Positions 7,559 through 25,521 of a stretch of DNA of 64,000 bases are shown here, one piece after another; within the stretch, counting starts at the first letter, position 1, and every line of letters begins with the position of its first letter. Origin of the DNA: Salinarchaeum laminariae. GTDB taxonomy: Archaea; Halobacteriota; Halobacteria; Halobacteriales; Salinarchaeaceae. The position numbers were made by a program, and so were the translations under genes. The DNA lies in the NCBI RefSeq assembly GCF_023204835.1, contig NZ_CP096270.1:2744907-2808906 (forward strand). The letters are read 5' to 3'. Under the pieces are notes generated by a model. The model was given only the letters and a program-made list of their open reading frames with translations, had not been told where the DNA came from and did not search any database.

Positions 7559-7582
7559 GGGCAAACAGCGATACTGATCGGT

Positions 7583-7657
7583 AGCGGGATGGGATAGCCA
7601 GGAGATTCCGCCGGGCTCATAACCCGGAGATCGGTAGTTCAAATCTACCTCCCGCTA
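7583..7657 (+). tRNA. initiator tRNA-Met (CAT)
   Basis: A 75-nt tRNA with acceptor AGCGGGA/TCCCGCT and discriminator A. The anticodon stem-loop is CCGGG-CTCATAA-CCCGG. The A1-T72 end pair and the three consecutive G-C pairs next to the anticodon loop identify the initiator rather than the elongator species. CCA is not encoded. The trailer immediately begins a perfect 15-bp inverted repeat that includes the last three tRNA bases. Confidence 0.95.
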
Positions 7658-8022
7658 TTTTCAGCGAACAACGCGAACGACGAGCGTAGCGAGGAGCGAG
7701 CCGTTCGCTGAAAATAGATCCCGTAGATTTGATCCCTGGCAGTCGCAGCCGGCGAGCGACCGACGGGAGTGAGTCGGATCGTCTGCCTCAGGTTCAAATC
7801 TACCTCCCGCTATTTCTCGGCGATCACAGCGAACGAGAAGCGAAGCGAGGAGTGAGCCGATCGCCGAGAAATAGTTCGGATTTGATTTGAGCCAGACGAG
7901 TCGCAGCGCCGAGCATAGCGAGGCGACCGTCTCGGCGAGGTTCAAATCTACCTCCCGCTATTTTTCGACGATCGCTCGGAACGAGATGCAAAGCTGCGTG
8001 TGGGCCGAACGGCGAGAAATAG
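7637..8022 (+). repeat. three tandem tRNA-3'-end/hairpin units
   Basis: The segment TTCAAATCTACCTCCCGC plus TATTT, the T-arm and acceptor 3' strand of the initiator tRNA, occurs three times (from 7638, 7793 and 7941). Each copy is followed by an inverted repeat starting at CTATTT. Unit 1 arms are 7655-7669/7703-7717 (15 bp perfect), unit 2 arms are 7810-7825/7859-7874 (16 bp perfect), and unit 3 is imperfect (7958 to 8022). The stems of units 1 and 2 differ in sequence but both pair perfectly. Loops contain GCGAACGA and GCGAGGAG-type purine repeats. No gene lies in this gap. Confidence 0.85.
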
Positions 8023-9367: not shown

Positions 9368-9474
9368 GTGGACTCGGCGGGACTGAGCAAACGCGAAGCG
9401 TTTGCGAGGTACGCCGAGTCTACGAGTGACTGAGCGAACGGAGTGAGCGAAGGAAACGAGTGGACTCGGCGGGA
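9368..9474 (-). repeat. tRNA-Ala trailer with partial 3'-end copy and hairpins
   Basis: GTGGACTCGGCGGGA, the complement of the tRNA-Ala 3' end, is present at 9460-9474 (in the tRNA) and again at 9368-9382. Between them lie a perfect 8-bp hairpin (9387-9394/9398-9405) and CGCCGAGTC (9412-9420), which is complementary both to the second copy (9371-9379) and to the tRNA's own 3' strand (9463-9471). The trailer could therefore pair with the mature tRNA end. Confidence 0.75.
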
Positions 9475-9532
9475 TTTGAACCCGCGGCCTCCCCCGTGCC
9501 AGGGGGGTGATCTACCACTGATCTACGAGCCC
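9461..9532 (-). tRNA. tRNA-Ala (GGC)
   Basis: A 72-nt tRNA on the minus strand with acceptor GGGCTCG/CGAGTCC and discriminator A. The G3-T70 wobble is the alanine identity element. The anticodon loop CTGGCAC gives GGC, and the anticodon stem is five G-C pairs. CCA is not encoded. Confidence 0.95.
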
Positions 9533-25432: not shown

Positions 25433-25438
25433 CCGAGT

Positions 25439-25521
25439 GCGGCGGGACTGAGCAAATCCAGCGAATATGCGAAGGTCGCCGCGCCCGTCGACGACCGAGT
25501 AAAGAGACGGGCGCGGCGGGA
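25439..25521 (-). repeat. tRNA-Arg trailer with partial 3'-end copies
   Basis: GCGGCGGGA of the tRNA 3' part (25513-25521) recurs at 25439-25447. CGCCGCGCCCG (25477-25487) is an exact 11-nt complement of the tRNA 3' end (25508-25518) and could pair with it in the primary transcript. The copy is followed by CTGAGCAAA, as in the tRNA-Ala trailer. A further degraded copy (GGTTCGAA...CGCGCCCG on the minus strand) overlaps the twin-hairpin element. Confidence 0.7.

Follow-up and report, generated by a model that had tools for sequence, protein, structure and literature searches.

The initiator tRNA gene of Salinarchaeum laminariae is followed by members of a family of non-coding, hairpin-forming repeats that, across the haloarchaea, sit at the 3′ ends of tRNA genes. 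The units follow the tRNA 3′ end exactly and contain a duplicate of it, their arms fit the local tRNA, their number varies and their fold covaries; moreover, several tRNAs can have the same core type, and a given tRNA mostly has different cores in two congeneric species. Most of the haloarchaea sampled have the family at many of their tRNA genes; the arms are copied from the host tRNA, and the cores seem to travel. We give about an even chance to the reading that the units are a mobile-like repeat without a transposase, which exploits tRNA 3′ ends, comes and goes through recombination between copies of the tRNA end and perhaps acts as folded single-stranded DNA. If they are mobile, the element turns highly constrained genes into a safe harbour and fits its flanks to any tRNA it meets; if they act as RNA, a structured trailer has gone unnoticed at many tRNA genes of an archaeal class.

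Organization of the initiator tRNA locus

In the window, the whole stretch of 64,000 nucleotides analysed here, the initiator tRNA gene, tRNA-Met(cat), occupies 7583-7657 (ARAGORN, 7582-7658; Rfam RF00005, 60.5 bits, 7583-7657); like all features of this locus, it is on the forward strand. Its authentic 3′ end (S, G53 to N73) lies at 7637-7657, and repeat analysis of the window found GTTCAAATCTACCTCCCGCTATTT at 7637, 7792 and 7940, the last two belonging to the extra copies S′ (7792-7812) and S″ (7940-7960). The initial annotation had described three tandem copies of the tRNA 3′ end behind the gene; the repeats are real, but two are extra and three are reached only by counting the authentic end.

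Each unit measures about 150 nt and comprises a trailer hairpin, an antisense T-arm piece (A), a core and the copied tRNA end (S′). The perfect stems announced for the first two trailer hairpins are indeed present, one of 15 bp in unit 1 (L1, 7655-7717; arms 7655-7669/7703-7717) and one of 16 bp in unit 2 (7810-7874; arms 7810-7825/7859-7874), as judged from sequence, inverted repeats and fold; a terminal trailer hairpin at 7958-8022 has an imperfect stem. A second hairpin per unit, in which the antisense T-arm pairs with the copied tRNA end, had been overlooked. It spans 7721-7805 in unit 1 (A at 7723-7735) and 7879-7953 in unit 2, and is matched there by R1, our covariance model of the A-core-S′ hairpin, with 70.2 bits (E = 1.1e-13, G000:C1:2752627-2752711) and 65.1 bits (E = 2.1e-12, G000:C1:2752785-2752859), respectively. 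In a congener (G001), the initiator locus carries a single unit, whose 16-bp trailer stem, read by eye, has a different sequence.

Between 7000 and 9700 of the window, only two tRNAs exceed the gathering score of Rfam 15, and a match to CRISPR-DR29 at 7903-7948 (25.8 bits) stays under its 39-bit cut-off. A known RNA family was therefore rejected at this locus, as no Rfam family fits. Among the roles suggested earlier (processing, termination or integration), integration comes closest; yet the units are a family extending over many tRNAs of the order and not a local feature.

Spread of the family and adjacency to tRNA genes

The A-core-S′ hairpin, rather than L1, is the defining part of the family. 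A DNA search of the S. laminariae genome revealed seven further places, six of which adjoin other tRNA genes (Arg, Val, Ser, Gly, Cys and Thr) and present the same architecture with arms resembling those tRNAs, and R1 found 33 places at E ≤ 8.2e-5 and 42 at E ≤ 1. The units follow the layout L1, A, core and S′ and are mostly 100-155 bp long; S′ reproduces the final 20-21 nt (T54 to N73) of the adjacent tRNA, whose T-loop and T-stem 3′ strand are present in inverted form in A, and S′ and A pair around the core. The distance from the tRNA end to the start of S′ ranges from 74 to 209 nt, with a median near 104 (106 units).

A search of relatives with R1 gave matches in 50 of 59 genomes, S. laminariae included. 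Matches were obtained in 43 of the 44 genomes of good quality, and among the nine genomes without match only G002 passes the quality cut. With stricter filters, a scan of the phylum matched 78 of 392 genomes, all belonging to the same order, which is represented by 81 members (those without match being G144, G012 and G335); the remaining 311 genomes, which appear from kinship-sorted rows to lie outside the order, gave no R1 match. Similarly, an exact core pattern occurs in at least 120 stretches of the GTDB contigs, and the titles are haloarchaeal for 80 of 80 among the matches listed. These 80 named loci, used below, were selected by an exact core pattern holding ten S′ bases, two of them degenerate, so that core conservation is built into them.

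The association with tRNA genes is close. Among 30 R1 loci of S. laminariae, 26 are located directly downstream of a tRNA in the same direction and four are orphans; in relatives, 29 of 29 R1 loci lie beside a tRNA (L108 only with a shifted coordinate); and a tRNA is present within 700 nt upstream in 73 of the 80 named loci among the matches listed, six being cut by the end of the contig or locus and one being an orphan. Such an orientation along tRNA transcription would also be seen if the unit were a long transcribed tRNA trailer, a structured RNA with hairpins that take part in 3′ processing, termination or protection, or with an arm A that competes with S′ for the tRNA T-arm; we regard this explanation as rather unlikely, and the evidence on it is given below as it arises.

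Two of the four S. laminariae orphans follow a displaced tRNA end, L069 at 5.9 kb from tRNA-Arg(tct) and L073 at 29 kb from tRNA-Leu(tag). A provirus- or plasmid-like island (L152:601-6302, G000:C1:1228400-1234101), carrying a tyrosine integrase (PF00589) and a DUF1424 Rep, separates tRNA-Arg(tct) from its displaced unit. At tRNA-Leu(tag), about 29 kb (L153 and L154, G000:C1:1591570-1620700), probably an island, separate the gene from a copy of its 3′ portion, itself followed by a unit. In G001, a copy of tRNA-Glu(ttc) is found 9.3 kb downstream of the intact gene (L151, G001:C1:2859298), with which it shares 67 identical 3′ nt; it has a hairpin-rich insert near its 5′ end and is followed by units with Glu arms.

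Since archaeal tyrosine recombinases are known to use the T stem-loop and 3′ end of tRNA genes as att regions (PMC8371274), and since islands separate tRNAs from arrays both at Arg(tct), with integrase and Rep genes, and at Glu(ttc) in G001, the units could be debris of the attachment sites of tRNA-integrating viruses and plasmids. This appears quite improbable: the islands seen adjoin the units and do not contain them, the integrase island at Arg(tct) being an element separate from the units; scars are not expected to keep covarying hairpins; and neither the exact core pattern in IMG/VR viral contigs nor one 77-nt test hairpin against phage and plasmid records gave a match.

Correspondence between the arms and the local tRNA

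Copies of the 21-nt tRNA end at 18/21 identities or more were found within 500 nt downstream of 13 of 41 S. laminariae tRNAs and upstream of none of the 41, and when the end of a tRNA for another amino acid was sought in the same downstream stretch, none of 1562 swaps succeeded, which excludes chance. The corresponding figures are 15/42 in G001 (swaps 1/1626) and 18/30 in G008 (swaps 2/824; 30 of its 44 tRNAs examined); the counts for the three genomes include the second-type units described at the end. Two spurious ARAGORN predictions and one tRNA locus present in duplicate were left out. G002, a low-GC genome of the same family without R1 matches, has no tRNA-end copy at any of the 30 tRNAs examined of its 40, and the existence of a relative devoid of units argues against a structured RNA. 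In the named loci, an S copy at 18/21 or more is present in 68 of 72 cases, vs 31 of 4559 swaps.

The identity stops with the tRNA. Over 105 units, S′ is identical to its own tRNA at 0.92-1.00 from T54 to N73, then at 0.59, 0.41 and lower past the tRNA end, and A is complementary chiefly over its first ten positions; both identities are inflated, as units were left out if mismatches exceeded 5 in 20 (S′) or 3 in 10 (A), and so were tRNAs or units without recognisable T-loop, S′ or A. S′ is highly identical over 20 nt although only roughly half of it is paired, and this conservation of the unpaired acceptor part does not favour a structured RNA. A fits its own tRNA with 652 matches vs 512 (sd 9) after permutation (99 of 106 units), a figure raised somewhat because likeness to the tRNA had served to locate A. 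At 22 sites where S′ departs from the tRNA, A follows S′ at two; both arms therefore look like copies of the gene and not like long co-evolved partners. That A tracks the tRNA itself would suit a structured RNA as well. In tRNA-Arg(tcg), tRNA-Ile(gat) and tRNA-Cys(gca) of S. laminariae (L024, L027 and L045), S′ presents one and the same unusual variant, TTCACA(A/G)TCC instead of TTCAAATCC.

Distribution of the cores

The same-tRNA unit was the best core match in the other genome for 7 of 37 units between S. laminariae and G001 (1.8 expected), these coming from four tRNAs (Thr-ggt, Lys-ctt, Ser-cga and Glu-ttc), for 1 of 29 between S. laminariae and G008 (1.6 expected) and for 4 of 23 between G001 and G008 (1.3 expected). 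Judged from this core comparison, a few units are orthologous and most are not. Vertical cases include the Thr(ggt) cores, which score 0.96, and the Ser(tga) units through Halorubrum. Nearest-neighbour core scores are mostly 0.4-0.8 (49 units); a distinctive core subtype is common to the Ile(gat) and a Leu end of S. laminariae and to the Ser(tga) of G001. As cores mostly do not track tRNA identity between the two congeners, they would move or be replaced while the arms stay local, and this independence from the tRNA again weighs against a structured RNA. The vertical inheritance of some units and the 7/37, itself above chance, count against a mobile element.

The succession of S, A and S′ is the direct-inverted-direct pattern of template switching. 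Its presence, the variation in unit number and a likeness of trailer hairpins within species would agree with passive tandem repeats, in which replication slippage or template switching at hairpins would duplicate tRNA ends and gene conversion with the tRNA gene would keep the copies alike. In Halorubrum, trailer hairpins are indeed closer within species than after permutation (0.702 vs 0.621, sd 0.015, 17 loci), the best match being an own-species copy in only 5 of 17; the gene conversion raised in the initial annotation thus finds some support, as homogenisation between copies. We nevertheless hold passive repeats to be unlikely: cores alike in sequence and fold are found at various tRNAs throughout the order, which local slippage cannot explain, and the loops and tandem GA mismatches persist where stems have changed. 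Simple tandem duplication was rejected, core types being common to several tRNAs and genera.

Fold and apex of the core hairpin

In S. laminariae, compensatory changes were observed in 18 of the 26 pairs of 16 aligned hairpins, and covariation extends across genomes; the proposal that pairing is retained despite base changes was thus well founded. A covarying fold is compatible with a structured RNA. A T5 run occurs between the tRNA and S′ in only 5 of 106 units (T4 in 26), so that many units may be transcribed with the tRNA, a further point in favour of that reading.

The apex GA-NN-GNA-N′N′-GA was found in 69 of 117 units, the non-overlapping R1 matches of the named loci (25 lower-scoring overlapping matches left out), vs 0.1 in shuffles and none in reverse complement. 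The 2-bp apical stems of these 69 are AC/GT (n = 35), GC/GC (n = 29), GT/AC (n = 3) and CC/GG (n = 2), and the loops GAA (n = 34), GGA (n = 19), GCA (n = 10) and GTA (n = 6). A genome-wide sequence habit was rejected as the source of the motif, which occurs 5 times in the 64-kb window vs 4.35 expected, but in 69/117 units.

Under RNA parameters, 84 of the 117 apical loops are triloops, among them 71 GNA, and three are GNRA tetraloops, a composition that counts against RNA; DNA energy parameters do not favour the 3-nt loop either (28/117). DNA mini-hairpins with GNA or GNNA loops and at least two G-C pairs are described as extraordinarily stable, GCGAAGC melting at about 78 °C (PMC4686876). The rule applies here only in part, because about half of the apical stems have one A-T pair, and by analogy the GNA apex leans to single-stranded DNA without proving it. 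G-T pairs are scarce in core stems (11/1264 cells), but as an argument for DNA this scarcity is modest and less telling, since control tRNA acceptor stems are low as well (24/952).

Empty sites, unit number and possible recombination

Filled and empty sites were compared between S. laminariae and G001. At tRNA-Glu(ctc), S. laminariae has the tRNA followed by its trailer and G001 a 121-bp unit exactly between the two, i.e., a clean empty site; this unit ends in a copy of the tRNA end of G001, including a base that differs from S. laminariae. At tRNA-Lys(ttt), the insert in G001 measures 241 bp and consists of a first-type then a second-type unit, the S. laminariae trailer resuming after the last copy. 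Both empty sites fall at the mature tRNA 3′ end. tRNA-Leu(caa) provides a looser empty site, where homology with an offset of about 120 bp becomes clear only some 60 nt further down. The 13 pairs that looked empty/filled at first were divided into two clean, one looser and ten without match of the empty trailer (three of them island-displaced); these remaining ten are uninformative, island-displaced or contain remnants.

Among 40 orthologous tRNA pairs of S. laminariae and G001, 16 have a unit in both, 6 in S. laminariae only, 4 in G001 only and 14 in neither, the island-displaced arrays at Arg(tct), Leu(tag) and Glu(ttc) being counted as present. On this count, sharing at 16/40 exceeds the 11 expected (P = 0.002), as a functional role would also give, and in this respect a structured RNA is favoured; presence still differs at 10/40, which it does not readily accommodate.

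Unit number also varies within Halorubrum: of 29 Ser(tga) loci, 10 have no S copy, 16 have one and 3 have two. The three two-unit arrays are all of the form [type a][type b] and single units are either a or b, as if one unit had been deleted. Deletion between direct repeats of 10-19 bp has been documented in Haloquadratum (PMC3119063).

Proposed mechanism and relation to known systems

Under the preferred reading of a transposase-free, mobile-like repeat, the core hairpin would come to a tRNA gene in folded, single-stranded form, perhaps as DNA, and the near-universal T-loop sequence would be the contact point. The insertion reaction, or a later exchange with the gene, would then give hairpin arms copied from that tRNA, and units would subsequently be lost or multiplied through recombination between S copies. 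Because S′ becomes the real tRNA end in such recombination, it would be kept fit to serve as a spare. The units are too short to encode an enzyme and would be mobilised in trans; no transposition event, circle or enzyme was seen.

In integron attC arrays, the recombination sites are folded hairpins whose apical part varies, arranged in tandem at one site. Any likeness to the present units would be architectural only; these contain no genes and have arms copied from the host tRNA gene. A host-borne, integron-like system can be tentatively imagined, in which an unknown haloarchaeal enzyme would recombine the folded single-stranded A-core-S′ into the T-loop of tRNA genes, each insertion supplying or copying a whole new tRNA 3′ end and the arms being rewritten from the gene alongside; we think it rather unlikely.

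The nearest published ground is PMC3119063, which describes transposase-free repeats (SMRs, PATEs and MITEs) and partial tRNA copies at prophages; its available part contains no description of tRNA-anchored hairpin arrays, and none of this repeat family was found by title or abstract in the open-access literature. The SMR-A/B of Haloquadratum walsbyi are non-coding, about 80-110 bp long, with inverted terminal sequences and an unknown mobilisation; SMR-A strongly prefers palindromes, no target is duplicated and copies are commonly >95% alike (PMC3119063). Our units are likewise non-coding and of roughly SMR size, somewhat longer with S′, but they duplicate the tRNA end, as seen in empty and filled sites, and have host-specific arms and diverse cores (0.4-0.8). 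PATEs and IS605-type elements have near-terminal palindromes, small transposase-free derivatives and no inverted terminal repeats, and those of IS605 type use a single-stranded DNA intermediate and a 4-6 bp target that is not duplicated (PMC3119063), whereas the tRNA-anchored units present the inverted arms A/S′ and a duplicated tRNA end of 20-21 bp. Finally, integrative elements targeting tRNA genes as a rule carry an integrase gene, and after their integration the tRNA 3′ end is present twice (PMC8371274, a paper that does not use the word “hairpin”). The units resemble them in the identity block running from the tRNA loop to the tRNA 3′ end (T54 to N73), but at about 75-210 nt they are too short for an integrase, and they include an inverted tRNA piece and a folded core.

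Second-type units

A second type of hairpin occurs at tRNA ends, also at L023, L126 and L114, and consists of an acceptor antisense, C[CT]TCGC-stem-GCTC[AG]G and a copy of the acceptor. Downstream of tRNA-Ala(ggc) (9460-9532 of the window), such a unit was read by eye at 9368-9420 on the reverse strand (16/25 direct match, coordinates derived from the tRNA), with the acceptor antisense, ACCTCGC-hairpin-GCTCAG and the acceptor copy, i.e., the same principle with another core. A further one, with a degenerate hairpin, lies downstream of tRNA-Arg(cct) at 25433-25474, also on the reverse strand (pattern match G000:C1:2770339-2770380). Dispersed CTTCGC(AGGATC GAG GATCCT)GCTCAGTCCC hairpins resembling the second type are found at G000:C1:647865, 745155, 1295013 and elsewhere, and none of the 41 tRNA positions of S. 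laminariae is near these three. Of 79 genomes of the order, 14 contain the strict second-type pattern, whose matches do not all adjoin tRNAs, and two contain a backward control pattern.
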